From positions 1 to 25,214 of the IMG/VR virus record IMGVR_UViG_3300046804_003958: 25,214 bases of DNA; one strand, 5' to 3'. Under the pieces are notes generated by a model, which saw only the letters and a program-made list of their open reading frames with translations, was not told the DNA's origin and ran no database searches. The DNA is from a virus. Within the stretch, counting starts at the first letter, position 1. Every line of letters starts with the position of its first letter. Below, piece by piece: positions 2,816-14,800 of the stretch. A program made the position numbers and the translations under genes.

Positions 2816-2984
2816 CAACGTCTCCATATGCATTTTCCACGTAGGGTCCGTGCTCTCGTTTGGAATCTTCTCGGACATAATTGACTTCTGATACGCTAGA
2901 GGACAACCAGACAGATACTTTCATTATAAGATATATAACCGCTAGTGGAAGAAAACAAAGTGAAAGTATGACGGCGTGTTTCAT
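2793..2984 (-). CDS. Small single-pass membrane protein, 63 aa
   Basis: This encodes 63 residues starting MKHAVILSLCFLPLAVIYLI. One strong hydrophobic segment (about residues 4-26) follows a single Lys. After it comes a polar, acidic tail (SKREHGPYVENAYGDVDEEAEKD) that should lie on one side of the membrane. The ATG overlaps the stop of the HiPIP-like gene as ATGA (2981-2984), so the start is firm. Position next to a predicted iron-sulfur protein could be meaningful, but a link is only speculation. No known holin or lysis motif is recognised. Confidence 0.78.
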   Translation of the reverse strand: MKHAVILSLCFLPLAVIYLIMKVSVWLSSSVSEVNYVREDSKREHGPYVENAYGDVDEEAEKD

Positions 2985-3181
2985 TGATTTTTTCGATCAT
3001 ACTGATGCCACTTACACCATCCGTCAGGGGAAATCTTACCTTTTACGGCAGTGCAAGCATTGGGTGGTCTCCACATATTACAATTAGAGCACTTTTCATT
3101 GCCTTTTGGTTCATTCTGATATTTTGCAGTCGCTTTTGATGCTTTTTCTTCTTCTGATAAAAATTCTTGAAATGATTTCAT
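2981..3181 (-). CDS. HiPIP-like iron-sulfur protein with T4-type capsid-targeting-like N-terminus, 66 aa
   Basis: I start at ATG 3181, coupled by ATGA to the upstream gene; a GTG at 3199 would add six residues. The C-terminal half carries four cysteines, C31-x2-C34-x8-C43-x12-C56. They sit in the context YQNEP..G..KCSNC...PPNAC..V.GKISPDGWC.W, which matches the signature of high-potential iron-sulfur proteins (HiPIP), small electron carriers with one [4Fe-4S] cluster. Bacterial HiPIPs are normally exported through a Tat signal, and none is present. Instead the N-terminus MKSFQEFLSE closely resembles T4 internal-protein leaders (MKTYQEFIAE), with LSE fitting the prohead-protease L/I-x-E cleavage rule. 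I infer a phage HiPIP that may be packaged in the capsid. Family call good; packaging speculative. Confidence 0.78.
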   Translation of the reverse strand: MKSFQEFLSEEEKASKATAKYQNEPKGNEKCSNCNMWRPPNACTAVKGKISPDGWCKWHQYDRKNQ

Positions 3182-3378
3182 TGTTCTTTCTCCAAACACT
3201 TCTCAAATTTATCTCTCAACTCATTTAACTTAGTTTGATGTTGAAACTCCATAATATGTTCGTTAATTTCTTTTTCTTGATCAGTGAATTCCATACGATA
3301 CTTTGTCTTAATATCAATCAAGCGCACCATATCCATATAATGCTCTGGACTTTTATTTACAAACTCTTCGTAGGTCAA
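3178..3378 (-). CDS. Small charged phage protein, 66 aa, probable TTG start
   Basis: No ATG lies near the beginning. I favour TTG 3378, which overlaps the stop of the 105-aa gene as TTGA (the same geometry as the ATGA joints here) and has GGAGG eight bases upstream. A TTG at 3393 would add five residues. The product reads M-TYEEFVNKSPEHYMDMVRL and continues with highly charged helical sequence (YRMEFTDQEKEINEHIMEF, KLNELRDKFEKCLEKEQ) that could form a coiled coil. It overlaps the HiPIP-like gene by ATGA at its end. Function unknown. Confidence 0.72.
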   Translation of the reverse strand: MTYEEFVNKSPEHYMDMVRLIDIKTKYRMEFTDQEKEINEHIMEFQHQTKLNELRDKFEKCLEKEQ

Positions 3379-3692
3379 TCCCGAGTCCTCCAATCGGTTT
3401 CGTCATCATCACGCTTAAACCAATCAAGGAGTTCATCAGGACTATCAAATCCCCTCCTACCAAATCTTTCGTGCCCTGTTCCACCAATATCAAGTTGGTT
3501 AAGGAAATCATCCATTTCATCCATATTGGGATTTTCTGCTTTCCTTCTTGCCTGGCGGAGTATTGTAGCAGCAGAGCGGTTTGCCTTCGCAAGTTTTTCT
3601 GCCCAGATCATATCTTCCAAACTCACTTCTTCGTGAAGAACAATCTTCTCACAGATTGCTTCAAGTCTCAACCGATACTGCGTAGAGAGCAT
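3375..3692 (-). CDS. Hypothetical phage protein, 105 aa
   Basis: This encodes 105 residues, MLSTQYRLRLEAICEKIVLH onward. The first 55 residues are helical and well patterned, including SLEDMIWAEKLAKANRSAA followed by a basic patch (ILRQARRKAENP). The second half is acidic and more flexible, with DEMDDFLNQLD, a Gly/Arg-rich part and DELLDWFKRDDDETDW. The motif SLEDMIWAEKLAKANRSAA belongs to a protein I recall as conserved in T4-like cyanophages with no assigned role (unchecked). It is preceded by an AATAAATA box (3714-3721), so it may head a late transcript. Confidence 0.85.
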   Translation of the reverse strand: MLSTQYRLRLEAICEKIVLHEEVSLEDMIWAEKLAKANRSAATILRQARRKAENPNMDEMDDFLNQLDIGGTGHERFGRRGFDSPDELLDWFKRDDDETDWRTRD

Positions 3693-3712: not shown

Positions 3713-3943
3713 CTATTTATTTTCATATTCGTCCATCAACTCTTTTGCGAGTTTCATAGAACGACGATGCATCATATATTTTACCACAGGATTGCGTGGA
3801 TTGTTCAATAACCACCACTTTTGTTTCTCATAGTTAGCTTTTGCTAACTTAAGCACATAATAAAAAGCAGCAGCGACACTATCATCCGTTGCGATGAAGT
3901 ATGCCACTACTGCAAATACGATAAACCAAGCGTAATAAGTCAT
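3713..3943 (-). CDS. Small membrane protein with basic tail, 76 aa
   Basis: This encodes 76 residues. A hydrophobic N-terminus (YYAWFIVFAVVAYFIA, about 3-18) should form one membrane segment; a second, weaker hydrophobic part (VAAAFYYVLKLA, about 23-34) follows after DDS. The remainder is basic and aromatic (YEKQKWWLLNNPRNP, KYMMHRRSMKLAKEL) and ends DEYENK. By the positive-inside rule the tail would be cytoplasmic. The start overlaps the stop of the 56-aa gene as ATGA (3940-3943). I do not recognise a family; with one segment and a charged tail, a holin is conceivable but unsupported. Confidence 0.8.
   Translation of the reverse strand: MTYYAWFIVFAVVAYFIATDDSVAAAFYYVLKLAKANYEKQKWWLLNNPRNPVVKYMMHRRSMKLAKELMDEYENK
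3714..3721 (-). promoter_or_regulatory. Putative late promoter octamer AATAAATA
   Basis: AATAAATA on the minus strand overlaps the stop of the 76-aa membrane protein and lies 21 bases before the ATG of the 105-aa gene. It differs from the T4 late consensus TATAAATA only at the first base, a position I recall as variable in cyanophages. Two other identical octamers in the window also sit just before genes. Confidence 0.45.
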
Positions 3944-5856: not shown

Positions 5857-5864
5857 AATAAATA
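5857..5864 (+). promoter_or_regulatory. Putative late promoter octamer AATAAATA
   Basis: AATAAATA on the plus strand lies 15 bases before the ATG of the 717-aa gene. The context AATAAATAATAGAAAAAAC is nearly the same as that of the box before the collar gene on the other strand (AATAAATAAAGAAAAAAC). The octamer matches the T4-type late promoter except at its first base. This would let the plus-strand tail gene be expressed with the other late genes. Confidence 0.6.
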
Positions 5865-5879
5865 ATAGAAAAAACGGAA

Positions 5880-8033
5880 ATGGCATTAAAGACATACAAA
5901 AGAATTGGAATAAGGAGAGATAGAAACTTATCCGATGTCTCAGATCCTACCGCTTCATTGAATAATCTTTTAGATACTCTTGTTGATGATGCCAATTCAA
6001 CGTTTATTTCAGAAGACTTAAATCCTATTAGAAATATTTTTTCTAATGGGTTAACAAACGATGGATATAGGCAGATTATAGGAAGTGCAGAAGTATTCAC
6101 GGATTCTAATGGAGTTACCCAATCATTTTTTCCAAGAATTACATATCAAAATCGTTTAGATAGATTTAGATCATTCTCGGGAGAACCTAGAATTAATGGA
6201 GGTGGTGGATTAACAGCAAAATATTATGATAAAACTCAAGTTTTTGAAAATACAACAAATATTTTCTCTGGAAGCCCATTTAAAGTTGATAACTTTTGGG
6301 AAGCTGGGCAATTCACTTATAGTGGAAAAATCACTCCAGAATCATCTGACGTGAATGGTGGTGTAGAATGGGAAGGATACTTTATTCCAACAGATACAGG
6401 AGCACATACTTTTTATGTGAATGGAAGCGCACTGTTAACTGTCGATTTTCAAACTGAAGGATATGTTTCTGGTGTTGGAACATACACAGAAGTATCAAGA
6501 GTTGGTTTATCCAGTGTTTTTTCTGGTTCTGGTACTATCGACACAAACACGATTACACTAGCAAGCCCTGCAAATACAAAACATATAGGTGTTGGGCAAA
6601 GTGTCTCTGCTTCGGGTATTGTTGCTGGAACGACAGTTGATTCCTATGATAGAGATAGTGGTATTATAACACTTCTACCACCTTCTGGCACTACATATGC
6701 ACTTTCTTCAAATGTAAGTGGAAACATTACATTCTTTAAAACAATCGGACAAAGTACCCGAGTTTATTATACCACATATGTACTTGAAGCCTATCAAAAA
6801 TATAGAGTCCGATTCAGATATTATATTCCACAGTCAGTCGATGCCATTGGTGCTCAAAGAAGTATTAGTTTTATTTTATTAAGACCGGGGGCATCAGCTG
6901 CGGATTTCTTTAGATATCAATATCTTTATGATCTAAATTATGATTTCAGTGACAGTGCAAAAGGTTCTTTTCCAATCTTCTTAGATAATTCAATTAATTT
7001 TGGTGGGGGTACAATCGGAGGAACAGCAAGTTCTAATGATTATGTAAGAATTCAAACTTCTAAAAAAGTTGATGTTACCTATCAACCAAAAACATCTCTT
7101 GATGCTATTACGAAAGCAACTACAACAGGAACAACGGTTAATTCATCAAAAGTTATAACGATTTCGAATACTTCTGGAATTGAAATTGGTAATTATGTGT
7201 TTGGAAATGCAATTCCAACAAATGCACGAGTATCTCAAATTGTTATCAATACTTCTGTCATTTTAGATACAAGCGCCACTGCATCGGGAACAGAGACACT
7301 CACTTTTATTGATCATCGGGGATTTGTTAAAAGAGCAGTTGGAAGTGGAAGTGCTGGGTCGTTCACATTAAGCAGTGGCGATACAACTAATTTAAAATCT
7401 GGAATGGTAATCATTGGTTCTGGTGTTCAAGCATACACAGGAATTACAACCACAGGATCAGCGTCTGCATTCACGATATCTCCTTCACAGACTGTTGGTG
7501 CAGGTACAACTGTTTATTTTTATCAATCAAGAGGATTGATTAATAACGCACTTGATGCTTTCTGTCTTCCAGCAAATACTTCCTGTTTGATTGTTTCTTC
7601 ACTTACCTCTTCTGGATCAACTGTAATTCCTGTTACCAGCACTACAGGAATTTCAAATGGTTGGACTGTTCAAGGATTTCAATTTGATTCTGGCACTACT
7701 ATTTCATCTTTCACAGCAAATAGTATTACAATCAATAAACCAACAATTCGTAGTTTAATTTCAGGATCAAACTTCACTGTTACAAATGCAAGTGGTGATA
7801 GAACTTTATGCTGCCCACCAACAGATACTTCTCCACCATTTAGCCCTACTTTAGATGGACTAGAAACAGTTTCTGCGTCACCAAGTCTTAAAATTCATTC
7901 TGGAAACATTGTTTTTGATGCTCTCAGAGTTGGAATTGCAAATACAATTACAACCTACAGTTCCTCTGACAGATCTGCTTGTAGATTACCAATTCAAACA
8001 CCATCAGGAACTTTTAAAATTCTATGTACGTAG
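5880..8033 (+). CDS. Tail-fibre/adhesin-type protein with interrupted PA14-like domain and beta repeats, 717 aa
   Basis: This is a probable virion protein on the opposite strand to its neighbours. Residues 1-60 carry a motif (G..RDRNLSDVSDPTASLNNL) shared with the 306- and 804-aa proteins. Residues 108-193 look like the first half of a PA14 domain (GLTAKYYDKTQVF, then VEWEGYFIPTDTGAHTFYVNG), which often binds carbohydrate. The second half seems to resume near 293-345 (VYYTTYVLEAYQKYRVRFRY). Between them lies a beta module that recurs at about 412-477, 487-547 and 572-636, with the pattern ITI..TSGI..G..V.G..I...T.V. The C-terminus has Cys pairs but no known motif. It has a late-promoter box upstream and converges with the 306-aa gene, overlapping by 12 bp. 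The receptor or sugar is unknown. Confidence 0.85.
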   Translation: MALKTYKRIGIRRDRNLSDVSDPTASLNNLLDTLVDDANSTFISEDLNPIRNIFSNGLTNDGYRQIIGSAEVFTDSNGVTQSFFPRITYQNRLDRFRSFSGEPRINGGGGLTAKYYDKTQVFENTTNIFSGSPFKVDNFWEAGQFTYSGKITPESSDVNGGVEWEGYFIPTDTGAHTFYVNGSALLTVDFQTEGYVSGVGTYTEVSRVGLSSVFSGSGTIDTNTITLASPANTKHIGVGQSVSASGIVAGTTVDSYDRDSGIITLLPPSGTTYALSSNVSGNITFFKTIGQSTRVYYTTYVLEAYQKYRVRFRYYIPQSVDAIGAQRSISFILLRPGASAADFFRYQYLYDLNYDFSDSAKGSFPIFLDNSINFGGGTIGGTASSNDYVRIQTSKKVDVTYQPKTSLDAITKATTTGTTVNSSKVITISNTSGIEIGNYVFGNAIPTNARVSQIVINTSVILDTSATASGTETLTFIDHRGFVKRAVGSGSAGSFTLSSGDTTNLKSGMVIIGSGVQAYTGITTTGSASAFTISPSQTVGAGTTVYFYQSRGLINNALDAFCLPANTSCLIVSSLTSSGSTVIPVTSTTGISNGWTVQGFQFDSGTTISSFTANSITINKPTIRSLISGSNFTVTNASGDRTLCCPPTDTSPPFSPTLDGLETVSASPSLKIHSGNIVFDALRVGIANTITTYSSSDRSACRLPIQTPSGTFKILCT

Positions 8034-8942
8034 AAGCAAATAATAAGTTTCTCCGTTAACAACAACTGGAATTTTATGAGTGAATGACGTGACTAAGACT
8101 TGTGATGCAGATTCCGTACCAAATCCAGTGATTCGAATATCATTTGCAAAATAAAGTTCTCCAACGGAAACGGAACTGCTCATTGTACTTAATGCAGTTC
8201 CTACTTGAGTCCAAGGATTATTATCGCTTGAGAATGCTCGTGTGTTACCAATAAAAATTCCAGGAGATTTTGCGTTTGCAAGACCTGTTGAATCAGTGTT
8301 TAATTTAACTGGATCATTAATCACTACTGATCCTTCATACTTTAAATCATCGACACTGGTTATTGTATTTTCATTTGCTTTATATTTTCTACCAATCAAA
8401 TAATTTGCAGTGTCATTATTTGCCTGTACTGTATCAAATACTCCAATACCCGCACCACTATAAGAAAAATTTTGAGTATCTTGAATGACTGGTTGAATAA
8501 AATTAATTAAGTTTTCTTGTTGGACAGCATCTTTTCGAATAAAATAAAAGTCTGTTAAAGATACAGAACTTACATTAATTGTGTTAATTCCAACTGATGA
8601 TGTTGACGGAGTTGTTGAAAGTTTAAATTGATTCTGCCCATTAGAATTACAAACGTAATAATCTACACCAAAGAATAAAGTTGTTCCCGAACCTACAGTA
8701 ACGGTTTTGCTTACACCTACAACATCATCATTGGTGAATACAAATTGATTTGATGCTCCAAAATAGAAGAATCCTGTTGAAAGACTATTATAAGAAACAG
8801 TAGATATGTTTCTTAAATTATTTTGAATAATTCTAAGATCATTAGCAATACCAGCACCACCCAAGTTGTTAAGTGTTGTAGTATCATTTGTGTTTTCTTC
8901 TAGATTTAAATCTTTTCTAAATCCTTGATTCTGTATTGCCAT
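8022..8942 (-). CDS. Virion-associated protein with shared N-terminal motif, 306 aa
   Basis: The N-terminus GFRKDLNLEENTNDTTTLNNL (residues 7-27) matches the opening motif of the 717- and 804-aa proteins, pointing to the same docking module. Residues 48-125 contain a phage-tail type beta module with FTNDDVVGV, GTTLFFGVDYYVCNSNGQ and FKLSTTP; related YY-type modules occur in the giant protein. The second half (VVINDPVKLNTDSTGL, PGIFIGN, VSVGELYFANDIRITGFG) is strand-rich and ends in YYLLLRT. It starts one base after the 804-aa stop and has only a weak Shine-Dalgarno, so it is likely coupled. It is the last gene of the structural operon. A short fibre or adaptor role is inferred. Confidence 0.82.
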   Translation of the reverse strand: MAIQNQGFRKDLNLEENTNDTTTLNNLGGAGIANDLRIIQNNLRNISTVSYNSLSTGFFYFGASNQFVFTNDDVVGVSKTVTVGSGTTLFFGVDYYVCNSNGQNQFKLSTTPSTSSVGINTINVSSVSLTDFYFIRKDAVQQENLINFIQPVIQDTQNFSYSGAGIGVFDTVQANNDTANYLIGRKYKANENTITSVDDLKYEGSVVINDPVKLNTDSTGLANAKSPGIFIGNTRAFSSDNNPWTQVGTALSTMSSSVSVGELYFANDIRITGFGTESASQVLVTSFTHKIPVVVNGETYYLLLRT

Positions 8943-8943
8943 A

Positions 8944-11358
8944 TTATTCGTAAGTGATGGTCCAACCTCTAGATCTTAAAAATTCAATTCTATCCAAGGA
9001 TACACCACTTGGAAGAGCATTACCACGCAAATTAACCGTAACTCCACGACGATTGACGGCAGTATAATTCGTGAACAAATCAGAAATAATCGCGTTTATC
9101 GCTTGCTGAGTTAGAGTATTTCCAGAAACATCAATATATCTGATGTTATAAATTCTTGCAAATGCACCAGAAGCATAATCTGTGAATCGATTATTAAAAA
9201 GAATCAAATAGTATAATCTTGGGCATCCTGTGAAATCTGGGATTTGCCCAGAAATTAAATTATTATGAGCATAAAAATAATATAAGTTTGGAAGATTTTC
9301 AAACTTCTGTAAGGATGTGAATTGATTATTATAAAGATATAGATAGGTTAATCTTGAGAGATTCTTATATGCAGGTATTGTTCCACTAAAAGCATTGTAA
9401 CTTAAATCTGCATAGTAGATATTTCTATTTGCTGCGAAATTAGGTACACTTCCACTAAAATTATTAGATTGAAGTACAAGATAAGTTAAATTCGAACAAG
9501 CGGCAAGACTTGGGAAATTACCTGTTGTTCTACCATAGGAAACATACCAAAGATAATATAGATTTGGAGTATAAGAAAAAGCGTTTGGATGAATTGGTGT
9601 CGTTAATAAATTACTTGATTGAAGTAGGAAGTATTGAATATTTGGTGATAATTCAAATGTCTTTTCTGGAATTACATAACTGGTGTCGCCACTTATATCT
9701 CCACCAGTGAGTGATGTATATCTAAGTTCAACATAAGAAAGACTTGTATTCGTGAATTTTGGCATTGCACCAGTTAATGGTGACGAATAAAAATATAAAG
9801 TACTTAATGAACTACAACCATTAAACTTATAAACATTACTACCTGTGAAAATACTTCCAATATTTCTACAATAATGTGCATAGAATGTAGTTAAAGATGT
9901 TCTTGCACTTAAATCTGGGCAAGGTAATCCAGTACTATGAATGCTTACATATTGAATTTTTGTATTTGAAGATGATAAACTAAAACCAGCATCGGTTAGA
10001 TAATAATTTCCACCTAATTCCAATGAGATCAAGTTTGTAAGATCTTTAACATTATAAGAACTTCCGCTTGTTGTTCCAAATGCTCTAAAATCATTATTAT
10101 AAGCATTATAAGTTTCGCAGGTATTTGGTACATTAGGTAGAGTACAGTTTGAATCCGCATTATCTGGATGAAAATATGGACCACTGCTTCTTGATAGATT
10201 CAGAGTTGTAAGTGTTGTGAAACGATTACTAATTAAATTCTGTGCAATAGATCCATAAAAAGTTCCTCCAAGGGTTAAATTCTTAAGTCCTGTTGGTATC
10301 TTTGAAACAATATTTGAATTCAAACTCCTTTCTGTTGAGGTCTCACTTAGATAAAGAGGATTTTGGTTTAAAAATAGATTCTGCAAACTAGGTGTAACAA
10401 AAGTTAAGTCTGGAAAATTAGCAATACTATTACTTGCAAGATTAAAACTAGTTAAATTTTGAAACTTAACTATAGGTATATTTGAAATATTTGCAGAATT
10501 AATGGTTACAGATGAAACATTATTAGGATTATAATAAAACTGAATATATCTTTCTTTTGAAACTGCAGAACGATAACGAATTGTTGATCCTTGATTTGGA
10601 AATCTTGTGAATGAATTTGCGTTATCTGTATCTACAATTTTCCAACTTGCTGGAGTATTATTAATTAAAGATGTGAGTTGAATATTTGCATCAAGATTTC
10701 TAAAGAATCCCGTGAATACAACGGGAATACCTTTCATTGCATAAAGAGATATTGTTCTTCCATCAATGTTACACATTATTTTATGTGTAGGAAATTCCGA
10801 ATCAAATTCCTTTGCTTGAGGAACTAGGGTTGTTTGAAGTCTTGGACCTGTTACACTTGGAGATTGAGTTCCAAATTGTAGTAATCCGCCAGTAATAATT
10901 CCAACTCTTGCGCCGTAAGAGATTGGAGATGTATCTAGTACTGGAGAAGCACTTGAACTCCAAGCACTGACTCTTGATGTTGAAATATCTGCAATTTTAA
11001 CTGTAGCAGAAGGTCCTGTTCCATCAAGATAACGATAACGAATTGCATTACCACTTAATGCACCATTTAGAACAATATTTCCAAATAAAGTTCGATTTGT
11101 TCCTGCCTTTAAATCTAAAATTGAAGAGTATAATTGAGAGTCATAATAAAAGCGATCAAGAGTTTTATACAGAGGATTTGTTAATCTAGAAAGACTAATC
11201 CAATCACCTCTTGTTGCTCCTGCATTCTGAGATCCTCTGATAACATCAAGATCAAGTGGTGGAAGATTTAAGGAAACAAGTGAGGTATTTCTATCTTGAA
11301 CATCAGAGAGAAAGCTTAATACATTTAAACCAAATAACTTTGGATTAGTAATTGCCAT
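8944..11358 (-). CDS. Leucine-rich-repeat tail/adhesion protein, 804 aa
   Basis: Residues 1-60 hold the shared N-terminal motif (GLNVLSFLSDVQDRNTSL) and a baseplate-facing head. From about residue 283 to 790 the protein is a long run of leucine-rich repeats of roughly 21-24 residues with the pattern L..L.L..N..SG.IP. Clear examples are NLTYLVLQSNNFSGSVPNF, YYADLSYNAFSGTIPAY and YFYAHNNLISGQIPDF. The SG-x-(I/V)-P form is typical of plant-type LRRs. The tail (IEFLRSRGWTITYE) looks like a cap. LRRs form a curved binding surface, so a receptor-recognition role is likely. The gene is the most AT-rich of the window and starts one base after the collar gene stop, with GAGGA upstream. Confidence 0.85.
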   Translation of the reverse strand: MAITNPKLFGLNVLSFLSDVQDRNTSLVSLNLPPLDLDVIRGSQNAGATRGDWISLSRLTNPLYKTLDRFYYDSQLYSSILDLKAGTNRTLFGNIVLNGALSGNAIRYRYLDGTGPSATVKIADISTSRVSAWSSSASPVLDTSPISYGARVGIITGGLLQFGTQSPSVTGPRLQTTLVPQAKEFDSEFPTHKIMCNIDGRTISLYAMKGIPVVFTGFFRNLDANIQLTSLINNTPASWKIVDTDNANSFTRFPNQGSTIRYRSAVSKERYIQFYYNPNNVSSVTINSANISNIPIVKFQNLTSFNLASNSIANFPDLTFVTPSLQNLFLNQNPLYLSETSTERSLNSNIVSKIPTGLKNLTLGGTFYGSIAQNLISNRFTTLTTLNLSRSSGPYFHPDNADSNCTLPNVPNTCETYNAYNNDFRAFGTTSGSSYNVKDLTNLISLELGGNYYLTDAGFSLSSSNTKIQYVSIHSTGLPCPDLSARTSLTTFYAHYCRNIGSIFTGSNVYKFNGCSSLSTLYFYSSPLTGAMPKFTNTSLSYVELRYTSLTGGDISGDTSYVIPEKTFELSPNIQYFLLQSSNLLTTPIHPNAFSYTPNLYYLWYVSYGRTTGNFPSLAACSNLTYLVLQSNNFSGSVPNFAANRNIYYADLSYNAFSGTIPAYKNLSRLTYLYLYNNQFTSLQKFENLPNLYYFYAHNNLISGQIPDFTGCPRLYYLILFNNRFTDYASGAFARIYNIRYIDVSGNTLTQQAINAIISDLFTNYTAVNRRGVTVNLRGNALPSGVSLDRIEFLRSRGWTITYE

Positions 11359-11359
11359 A

Positions 11360-11872
11360 TCAGATGGTCCTCATAATAAATGCAAGCGCATAATATGGGG
11401 GTCTGTTTTCGTGGTAGTCGTCTGCACCAGTGCTCTGAGTAGAATCTGGACCAATATCATTACTGGTTGCAAGAGCATATCTACTAGATTGAGTATTAAC
11501 GTTACTATTTCCAGAATACCTAGATAATTGGTGACTGTGAGATGGCATCTCAGCAACTGTCAGTTGATGAGCAGTTTCACCACCAGTATTTCCAGGTGCA
11601 TATGCTCCACTTACAGCGCCAGTATCAGCATTAAATGTAACTCCAGTAGAGGCATCACTGGTTGCACCTACAATGAAACGACTTCTTAGGTCTGGAGTTC
11701 CACTCGAACCATTGCAAAGTGCCCATCCTGTGGGAATACTTGCAATAGAACCAGACCACATAATAATACCACCAATTGGAATCGTTCCATTTCCAACTAG
11801 CCCATCAGAATCTGTCAGTTCTTGTATCTGATTTGCAGCAGCATTAACAATTAAAGGTCTACGAGTTGCCAT
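11360..11872 (-). CDS. Short tail-collar domain protein (gp12-like tip), 170 aa
   Basis: Residues 30-75 match the phage tail-collar domain: GTIPIGGIIMWSGS, PTGWALCNGSSGTPDLRSRF and VGATSD. The C-terminus has HSHQL followed later by ENRPPYYALAFIMRTI, the usual end of collar/short-fibre proteins such as T4 gp12, in which His residues hold metal in a trimer. The head (MATRRPLIVNAAANQIQELTD) looks like a short attachment segment, so this is a compact receptor-binding tip or cap. The gap before it (24 bases) contains a late-promoter octamer; it is followed one base later by the LRR gene. A tail-fibre tip role is well supported; the receptor is unknown. Confidence 0.88.
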   Translation of the reverse strand: MATRRPLIVNAAANQIQELTDSDGLVGNGTIPIGGIIMWSGSIASIPTGWALCNGSSGTPDLRSRFIVGATSDASTGVTFNADTGAVSGAYAPGNTGGETAHQLTVAEMPSHSHQLSRYSGNSNVNTQSSRYALATSNDIGPDSTQSTGADDYHENRPPYYALAFIMRTI

Positions 11873-11890
11873 TATAATTTGTTTTTTCTT

Positions 11891-11898
11891 TATTTATT
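11891..11898 (-). promoter_or_regulatory. Putative late promoter octamer AATAAATA
   Basis: On the minus strand AATAAATA overlaps the TAA stop of the 1219-aa gene and lies 18 bases before the collar ATG. It matches the T4 late promoter TATAAATA except at the first base, and the following AAGAAAAAAC is also found after the plus-strand box at 5857. It likely gives a second late start for the collar, LRR and 306-aa genes. Confidence 0.6.
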
Positions 11899-14800
11899 AT
11901 TGTTCTTTAAAGTTAAGGCTTACCTCAGCAGTTCCACTTCCACCACCATCAATCTTTTTAGCAGTAATAAATGTTGCTTCAAGATTGTTATTATCTGGTG
12001 TGATGACTCTCTTCTCTGGACCAAATATTTTGCTCATATCAATAGTTTCAGTAGAGTTTGCACCAATATAGAGAGTATCTCTTTCAGTATATGGTCTTAA
12101 ACTTTGATCATTTTGAACATCAATAAGAGCAGATGATAATCTGGTTATTTCGTTAAAGTTAGTCGGTGAAACTCCAGTTGTGTCAGCATTTCCATCAGCA
12201 TTTGTAACTTCAATAGCATCACCAAGAATATACCACTTGGGACTAACTGTTCTTTGTAAGTCTCCAATTGTTTCTTTAACAGAAATATTGTTAATCTGAG
12301 CATAATCTCTCAGTTTTGCAACCAAATAGAGAGGATATGGATTGTAGTTATAAAGTTTTGTTGAGTTGACTGATCCTTCTGCAGTTACATTAATAGGTCT
12401 AATTAGAATGGTGAAATTAGATCCAGCACTTAAAGTTTGATCAATTTGAATATAAGAATAAGTATTTCCACTAGAGAAATAACTACTTGTTACTCCAACA
12501 AATCTTGAATTTGTTACATTCACTGTTCCACCAGTTTGCAAAATTGCAATCTGACCACCATTATAATCAATTGCTGGGAATGTTCCTTGAATTTGAACAT
12601 AAAGATTTCCATCACTTAAACCTGTTTTTGGATTCACATTATATTCATTCACATCTGGAATTTGTAATGGATCTTCAACAGTAACCGTTGCTTTTGAACA
12701 AATGCCACCAGCAGGACTTGCAAGAGATGGAATACGGTAATCAATACCCATACGAATTGATGGTTGTTGTGGAGCCCAACCCTCAGCAGTTTCTACACCA
12801 TCCTCATTTGCGGCAGTATAACTATGGGTATGCTCACCATAAAGAATATCAGAGTTTGCTAGAATTGTTGTTGTACCAACTCCAGGAATAATAAATCCGT
12901 TCAATGTATCAGGAAGTGATACATCAGGTTTTTTATCAGTAATTCCAATTAGAAAATCTGCAAAGTGTTCATAATTATCTGCAGATCTTGGATTCACGAA
13001 TTGAATTTCAAGTGTAGATCCAGTGAATCCAAAGTCTGATGCGGCATAACAATCATAGTTACTTAATCTAATTTGATGTGGATATGTTACACCAATACCA
13101 ATTGTAGTTGTAATTCCGAGAACACGATCATAAACAACGTTACTTGGAGATCCAATATTACGGTCAGTTAAAGAGAAACTAGCTAAACCACCAAATCCCT
13201 TCACAGTTGCAGTTTGAGTGTTCACATTCACACTTGTAATATAAGCATTATAAATTGATGGGGCAATAATCTTAGCACCAACATCATCCGCAGTGAAAGA
13301 ACTTACACCAACTGTTGTAATTGTATTTGGATCACTAAATTGAATATCCAAATATCTTCCACTTTCAGTTTTTGCAATTCCTGGTGTATAAACGTGACCA
13401 AATCCTGGGCAGGCAGTACAAGTTACAACCTTAACTTCTGTTAGAGAATCTGTGGAAACATTTAACTCTGTAGGAACAATAATCTTTTTATTCTGAATCG
13501 GAACTCCATCACGATTTAGAATAAAATCTTTTGGTGTAACTCCAAGAAGAGACTTAACTTTCGAAGAACTTATTGTTCTTTGCTTAGAACTTGCTGAATA
13601 GATTTGTGATGTTCCTTCATCACCACCATCAATATAATAAGAAGCACCATACTTATAAATGTATTGTGGTGTTCTTACATCTCCAGTATTTGCAATATTA
13701 AGAGCATACTTAAATCTAAAATAAGAATCTTGCAAACAAGGAGAACCTAAAGAGTTTTCAATGACTAATGTGTGAATAACTACCCATCTTGCGTCACCAT
13801 TATCTGTAGGAATATAAGCATAAAATCTCGCACCAATAGCACCATACCAACCAAATTCAATCTTATACATTGTAACTTTTTCTGGATTCAACAAATATCC
13901 AGAAGGTCCATTTGAATTTAATGGATCTCCATTGAATTTATCTCTAGGTATTTGAATGGTCCAGTATTCAGTATCATCAAATGGATCACCACTTACAATA
14001 CGTGTTTGATCTGCAATTGTCAAACCACTTCTTGCTAAAGCACTACTTTCAAGTGGAATTGTACTTCTGCGTACAATATAAAACTGTCCAGCATCAATTC
14101 TAAAAACATATTGATCTGTTGGGTTAGAAATTCCCCATTCTAGAGTAATACCAGTAACAGGTTCTGTAGAAGATCTTAAACCAAATGTAAATCCGCTGAT
14201 TCTACCAGGTTGATATCTAAAAACTCTTCTTGATTGCAGATATGCGTATCTCTGATCAGAATCAGAATATCCAGGTCTAGTTGTAGTGGAATCTACATAA
14301 TAATTCAAAAGTAAAATAATTGTAGTAAACGTAAAATTATTTCCAGTTACAGGATCAACTAGAAGACTATCTTTAATATCTCTCCAGGTGTCAGTCCAAG
14401 TATCAATCTGTCTAAATGCTGCTTCAGTTCCTGCAGCATAAACAACGTCTCCTCCAAAAATATAAGCAAAAGAAGGTGATAAGAACTTATCTTTCCAATC
14501 AGATGGATATGCAGTTCCACCTGCACCATTAAAGTAATTATAAAGATCGTTTCCTAATTGAATAAAATTTATATACTGACTAAACCGAGTATTATCATAT
14601 AATCCTAATTTTTCAAACTTTGGTCCAAAGGGAAAAGAATATGGCACAGGAAACGCAGTAATTTTAATTGCAGATTCTTGAATCTCTTCTGTTCTTGTTG
14701 CATCATAGCGATTTCCATAAATTTCATTTCCCCTATTATCCCAAGAACCAAAACTAACTCCGGAATCATATGAATAAAATTCAAATTCATCAGGATCTAG

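Follow-up and report, generated by a model that had tools for sequence, protein, structure and literature searches.

A cyanophage high-potential iron-sulfur protein with a predicted T4-type capsid-targeting leader

The stretch of viral DNA analysed here, referred to as the window, comprises positions 1 to 25,214 of IMG/VR virus record IMGVR_UViG_3300046804_003958 (25,214 nucleotides [nt]) and carries a small gene at positions 2981 to 3181. We favour, with a probability of about two in three, the reading that its product is a redox protein packaged in the phage head, namely a high-potential iron-sulfur protein (HiPIP) with a predicted capsid-targeting leader of the kind used by bacteriophage T4. 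The original prediction had been made without a strand; the gene proved to lie on the minus strand of the window. Both sequence features on which that prediction was built were recovered in the translation, the N-terminus MKSFQEFLSE and four cysteines in the arrangement C31-x2-C34-x8-C43-x12-C56. The latter spacing (C-x2-C-x8-C-x12-C) was identical to that of PioC, the HiPIP of Rhodopseudomonas palustris, in a pairwise alignment.

The assignment to the HiPIP family was borne out by profile searches. The Pfam HIPIP profile (PF01355) matched residues 12 to 57 of the window protein with 23.4 bits, a small margin above its curated cut-off of 22, and it matched all 44 aligned members of the family at E values of 0.01 or below; other families matched none. 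The closest solved structure was that of PioC (PDB 6xyv), found at an E value of 5.5e-11 with the single sequence and at 1.8e-12 with a profile of the 44 homologues. Moreover, the four cysteines, the triplet G54-W55-C56 and the tyrosine at position 21 were invariant in all 45 distinct versions of the protein. The NCBIfam model of the Iro iron oxidase (NF041615) gave 45.6 bits, below its equivalog cut-off of 100 bits, and the PHROGs collection had no family for the protein at an E value of 1 or below. The conclusion that this is a small HiPIP of the PioC/Iro type, with a predicted iron-sulfur cluster, is thus supported.

Cellular HiPIPs usually carry a twin-arginine export signal, which lies outside the Pfam definition of the family. 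When such a signal was sought at the N-terminus MKSFQEFLSEEEK, neither an RR pair nor a hydrophobic stretch was found, which lowers the probability of an exported periplasmic carrier and not that of a HiPIP domain. Excerpts of the literature describe a cellular HiPIP as a substrate of twin-arginine translocation that is handled in the folded state (PMC4361764), give HiPIP couples of about +50 to +500 mV (PMC7462912), and place PioC in the periplasm, where it carries electrons from PioA to the reaction centre (PMC10304953). The phage protein resembles PioC and Iro in being a small HiPIP, but it is phage-encoded, scores under the Iro cut-off and begins with a capsid-type leader instead of an export signal. 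Residue 3 of PioC aligned with residue 12 of the phage protein, immediately past the predicted cut, so the leader occupies the place of the export signal in cellular HiPIPs.

Within the leader, M1, K2 and E10 were invariant in the 45 versions, while position 4 was F (40), L (3) or Y (2), position 7 was F (44) or Y (1), and position 8 was L (43) or I (2); positions 3, 5, 6 and 9 were variable. The conserved positions are those that matter in mutational work on T4, where, according to excerpts of one article, positions 4 and 7 of the internal protein III (IPIII) leader govern targeting and positions 8 and 10 govern processing (PMC9026906). Some relatives read MKSYQEFIAE, compared with the MKTYQEFIAE of T4 IPII and IPIII. 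The likeness to these two proteins covers the length of the leader, the residue classes at positions 1, 2, 4, 7, 8 and 10, and a small basic cargo; a T4-type prohead protease is also encoded in the related phage S-SRM01. The cargo differs, being here an iron-sulfur-type domain, and packaging and cleavage are predicted from the sequence. The median calculated isoelectric point (pI) of the mature HiPIP was 9.05 among the 45 versions, and the same calculation gave 9.0 to 9.7 for the T4 internal proteins. With 56 residues and 6.5 kDa, the mature protein would be smaller than the 76-residue IPI, which we take to be cut at residue 19.

To quantify the leader, a fixed-position pattern, M[KR]x[FYLMI]xx[FY][LIMVF]xE, was used. 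All 45 distinct HiPIP versions fitted it, and it was matched at none of the internal ATG positions of four genomes (0 of 960 in S-SRM01, 0 of 885 in S-CREM2, 0 of 950 in T4 and 0 of 1112 in S-SCSM1); the leader is therefore not a product of chance. The scan of S-SRM01 returned four matches, all of them annotated genes. Apart from the HiPIP gene, these were three coding sequences (CDS) of different make-up, encoding a 102-aa protein (phrog_1742), a cytidyltransferase and a 447-aa protein with a calculated pI of 10.8. Four annotated genes were likewise found in S-CREM2 (those of a SAM hydrolase, gp13, a kinase and a cytidylyltransferase), and all four products belong to the virion proteome, in which 52 of 219 CDS were detected (hypergeometric probability 0.003; PMC10665884, Table 3). 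The word "leader" is absent from the text of that proteome paper. In S-SCSM1, which was tested after the pattern had been fixed, one of the two matches was virion-labelled, the nicotinamide mononucleotide adenylyltransferase (NMNAT).

Excerpts of two further papers report this virion NMNAT of S-SCSM1 (PMC9602691) and the presence in virions of the S-SM1 cytidylyltransferase T4-GC190 (PMC3037559); the latter protein begins MKKFSAFLNE. These enzymes, together with the S-CREM2 SAM hydrolase and kinase, are from phages of the same family, Kyanoviridae, bear the same type of leader and are found in virions, but they are much larger than the HiPIP. The proposal of a T4-type leader is accordingly strengthened both by its conservation in 45 of 45 versions at the positions relevant in T4 and by the same leader type on virion proteins of cyanophages. 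As a separate observation, the S-CREM2 Cas9, also detected in virions, contains the leader-like stretch FASFMAE some 18 residues past the start given in its annotation. In T4 itself, the pattern found three open reading frames (ORFs), those of IPII, IPIII and gp61.1. The last of these (L093:18966-19130; 54 aa, annotated as hypothetical) has the N-terminus MKTFKEFIKE and is possibly an internal head protein that has so far escaped notice.

S-SRM01 encodes a T4-type prohead protease (phrog_207, E value 8.5e-82), a scaffold and a major head protein. The major head protein contains FLSE-A at residues 51 to 55, which from its position we infer to be its cut site (FLSE|A), and the leader of the window HiPIP ends in the same FLSE. 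In ten HiPIP-bearing contigs, a DNA form of the leader pattern gave 32 matches, on one strand per contig, compared with 3 for the reversed pattern. Several contigs share matched sequences, so that the 32 matches are not independent, and some are not leaders (one runs into a stop codon, and one ORF is SbcC-like by eye). Apart from the HiPIP, the leader in these contigs stands on relatives of the 102-aa protein and on proteins of 157, 283, 97 and 216 aa, the latter four with calculated pI values of 9.99 to 10.55; none of these five had a Pfam match at an E value of 0.01 or below. The genes for these very basic products occur as neighbouring pairs, 97 plus 216 aa (L202:1501-1794 and 1813-2463) and 157 plus 283 aa (L200:1501-1974; L206:1501-2352).

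The HiPIP gene belongs to an operon (phrog_507 gene, 71-aa ORF, HiPIP gene; Table 1) preceded by ATAAATA, which we take to be the T4-type late promoter motif, an identity supported by its position. The window contains 3 copies of this motif, compared with 8.5 expected, each just 5' of a gene start. The two others, at 5858-5864 (plus strand) and 11891-11897 (minus strand), precede the long ORFs at 5880 and 11872 by 15 and 18 nt, as expected for late promoters; by eye, these ORFs look tail-fibre-like. Among 81 loci (80 from IMG/VR and S-SRM01, each with between 162 and 2500 nt of upstream sequence), 66 had ATAAATA upstream in the sense orientation and none had it on the opposite strand; in most of the 66, not all, it directly precedes the phrog_507 gene. 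In S-SRM01, whose phrog_507 gene overlaps at its end with the HiPIP ATG, the motif occurs within 80 nt of the HiPIP operon and of the three other leader genes. It preceded 13 of 29 late or structural genes of this phage versus 2 of 29 early genes, in hand-picked lists of which the late one includes the leader genes and the HiPIP operon.

Packaging of the HiPIP in the virion is likely because of the conservation of the leader, the association of the leader with virion proteins, the protease of S-SRM01, the leader on other proteins of that phage and the late-promoter motif.

Table 1. Positions of the HiPIP gene, its parts, its operon and the leader-bearing proteins of S-CREM2
Feature	Positions	Strand	Remarks
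HiPIP gene	2981-3181	minus	66 aa; ATG at 3181, stop 2981-2983; Shine-Dalgarno-like GGAG at 3190-3193; orthologue annotated from the same ATG in S-SRM01
Leader MKSFQEFLSE	3152-3181	minus	Predicted T4-type capsid-targeting sequence; predicted prohead-protease cut after E10; positions 1, 2 and 10 invariant in 45/45; cleavage inferred
Predicted mature protein (HiPIP domain)	2984-3151	minus	56 aa, 6.5 kDa (apo), calculated pI 9.2; Pfam HIPIP residues 12-57; PioC aligned to residues 12-59
Four predicted cluster-ligand Cys codons	3014-3091	minus	C31 3089-3091, C34 3080-3082, C43 3053-3055, C56 3014-3016; invariant in 45/45
71-aa ORF directly upstream of HiPIP gene	3178-3393	minus	Start codon uncertain; no clear family; absent in S-SRM01
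First operon gene, phrog_507 family (unknown function)	3375-3692	minus	E value 5.5e-37; counterpart directly 5' of HiPIP gene in S-SRM01
Late-promoter-like ATAAATA	3714-3720	minus	21 nt before first ATG of operon phrog_507 - 71-aa ORF - HiPIP
S-CREM2 leader-bearing virion proteins (SAM hydrolase, gp13, kinase, cytidylyltransferase) and Cas9	L088:3837-5081, 7704-10313, 10310-10546, 10579-12846; L090:24608-25468

The 2981-3181 reading frame is a real gene, since GGAG stands 8 nt 5' of its ATG and the ratio of nonsynonymous to synonymous polymorphism (pN/pS) was 0.11 over 50 distinct nucleotide sequences. This value indicates purifying selection; it was 0.195 for leader codons 2 to 10 and 0.057 for the core (codons 28 to 59). 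A misread strand was considered and rejected, and an artefact of overlapping ORFs was rejected on the basis of purifying selection and conserved gene order. The HiPIP of the window is encoded in 89 IMG/VR stretches; the 80 best of these, together with the S-SRM01 copy, made up the 81 loci and 45 distinct proteins; all 45 were full length, with both leader and domain. A tblastn search of 50,697 phage records yielded a single isolate, the Synechococcus phage S-SRM01, which came from a reservoir in Singapore and whose genome appears under two accessions. Its protein is 89.4% identical, which supports the cyanobacterial host put forward in the original prediction; we take the window to stem from a virus of cyanobacteria living in fresh water. 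There was also a distant match in an uncultured 484-kb phage (E value 4e-3), and four further records at E values of 5 to 8 were taken as chance matches.

As to the origin of the gene, none of 299 genomes from the order of a Synechococcus genome (G012) contained a HiPIP above the Pfam cut-off, which a diverged host HiPIP could escape, the phage protein itself being barely above it. Three matches fell below the cut-off, and the phage profile gave seven partial matches (E values 0.0017 to 0.0098). When these ten weak matches were translated, none had four cysteines at the HiPIP spacing (one had four otherwise spaced, and one had three). A scan of genome contigs with the phage alignment, made to trace a cellular source, found no relative. 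Acquisition of the gene from the host was rejected, as no host homologue was found in these searches.

According to the favoured reading, the HiPIP would be made late in infection and would acquire its cluster in the host cytoplasm. The leader would then draw it into the prohead core, where the phage prohead protease would cut after Glu10, leaving a 56-residue basic protein retained in the head beside the DNA. By analogy with T4, it may enter the next host together with the DNA; excerpts of PMC9026906 describe T4 IPI as a small fold said to pass the portal while folded. Its role would most likely be either that of a one-electron carrier early in infection, taking or giving single electrons in the host cytoplasm, or that of a redox buffer protecting DNA in the head or on entry, where in the head it could reduce oxidised bases or radicals.

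Several observations weigh against this reading. The AlphaFold2 model built from the 44 homologues was of low confidence (predicted local distance difference test score 63.3, predicted template modelling score 0.35), so that the fold rests on sequence. The residue following the predicted cut (P1') is Glu, which the protease may not accept. The pattern missed T4 IPI, and it was fixed only after the N-termini of S-CREM2 had been seen, so the test in that phage was not blind. Dropping the requirement for K or R at position 2 left five of six annotated S-CREM2 genes in the virion proteome; the sixth, gp175, which matches only under that relaxation, was undetected. The S-SCSM1 match lacking a virion label was S-SCSM1_30, a 106-aa protein that by eye is phrog_1742-like. 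The 102-aa leader protein is acidic (pI 4.84), unlike the T4 internal proteins. A T4-type protease was seen, besides S-SRM01, in 3 of 10 HiPIP-bearing IMG/VR contigs, for which there is no completeness estimate; to judge from its long ORFs, the 25-kb window contains genes of the tail type. Finally, literature searches yielded no virion proteome of a HiPIP-bearing phage (the S-SRM01 paper does not contain the term "mass spectrometry"), and no partner or function of the HiPIP was found.

A different explanation would be that the HiPIP is genuine but works as a late electron carrier within the infected cell; its leader-like N-terminus would then be a helix that serves docking or stability and not packaging. 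The late-promoter motif would suit any late protein, no virion proteome of a HiPIP-bearing phage was found, and gp175 and S-SCSM1_30 make the leader pattern an imperfect predictor. However, the leader is shared by further proteins of these phages and resembles that of the T4 internal proteins, five of the six leader bearers in the two proteomes are virion proteins, and the conserved positions are those needed for targeting and cleavage in T4. We consider this explanation unlikely.

Rather improbable, too, is a packaged protein that is not redox-active, a HiPIP-derived fold with zinc or no metal that would act as a basic internal protein, either in DNA packing or as an inhibitor like T4 IPI. 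The low margin over the Pfam cut-off would agree with this, a cluster is not visible from sequence, and the other leader cargos are mostly very basic (calculated pI 9.99 to 10.8 in five of the six measured). Nevertheless, the cysteines, Tyr21 and the GWC triplet never vary, constraint is strongest in the core of the protein, and the nearest relative of known structure, with the same cysteine spacing, functions as a HiPIP. As for a chance resemblance of both leader and domain, the motifs are short and the Pfam score is modest, but the 89 encoding stretches, the purifying selection and the absence of the pattern from 3907 internal ATG positions have already largely refuted it, and we give it very little weight.

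A second viral HiPIP family was reached from the match in the 484-kb phage (LR756508, L092:4791-5186), with 12 more loci (L224-L235) and a different core. Scans of whole records placed Pfam HIPIP above the cut-off in six of six records, while hmmscan of single proteins gave scores below it for L231 (21.9), L233 (17.4) and L234 (16.9). Some members bear a leader of the type KLR.IIREE..LLSE; L231 and L234/L235 have none. On contig G313 (L236-L246), the HiPIP begins MYLSKKKLRSVVEEEVKKLLSE, and a similar N-terminus (KLRRIIREEV..L..E) occurs on six ORFs including the HiPIP, two of which adjoin a T4-type prohead protease. A loose pattern, written after the sequences were seen, matched 1 of 643 internal ATG positions of G313. 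This N-terminus appears to be a capsid-targeting leader of a second type.

In member L233 (L233:70-2670, on a 104-kb IMG/VR contig; L247:7274-9874), the HiPIP domain lies within an 866-aa ORF, after DUF192 and before a portal/MuF-like C-terminus, a stretch that matches the end of portal profile phrog_2662 (E value 4.7e-7) and, weakly, head-morphogenesis profiles. This ORF directly follows the genes for a terminase and a portal protein (phrog_18178, E value 4e-159) and precedes those for a head maturation protease and the major head protein. Because of its domains and its place among head genes, a head-linked HiPIP in another virus is plausible, not proven. It is conceivable, and we suggest it only tentatively, that tailed viruses loaded HiPIPs into their heads more than once: by a capsid-targeting leader in T4-like cyanophages, by a leader ending in L-S-E in large phages with T4-type proteases, and, in one virus, by building the HiPIP into a large head-region protein. 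A shared redox function in the capsid might then be that of a one-electron donor protecting the DNA, while packaged or on entry, from oxidative damage, or of an injected carrier feeding the first redox steps of takeover.

In the open-licence literature, nothing was found that pairs cyanophages with HiPIP, or high potential iron-sulfur proteins with viral auxiliary metabolic genes, and the papers naming both HiPIP and bacteriophage were, judged by titles and the beginnings of abstracts, not concerned with a viral HiPIP. Nor was a paper on a cyanophage capsid-targeting sequence found in that literature, where a T4 review alone pairs the terms. According to excerpts of PMC9026906, the head cargo of T4 consists of an ADP-ribosyltransferase and small basic proteins. 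Capsid-targeted cargo of the T4 type would thus be the known part of the present prediction, and a redox metalloprotein as the cargo would be the new one.

If the favoured reading is true, an iron-sulfur electron carrier would be a new class of cargo, and the virus particle would carry a redox centre. As the gene is present in the cultured phage S-SRM01, packaging is directly testable. The leader test suggests that the head-borne ones among unknown cyanophage proteins could be predicted by a simple rule, and the leader would link scattered virion finds, such as cytidylyltransferase, SAM hydrolase, kinase and perhaps Cas9, to one targeting mechanism.
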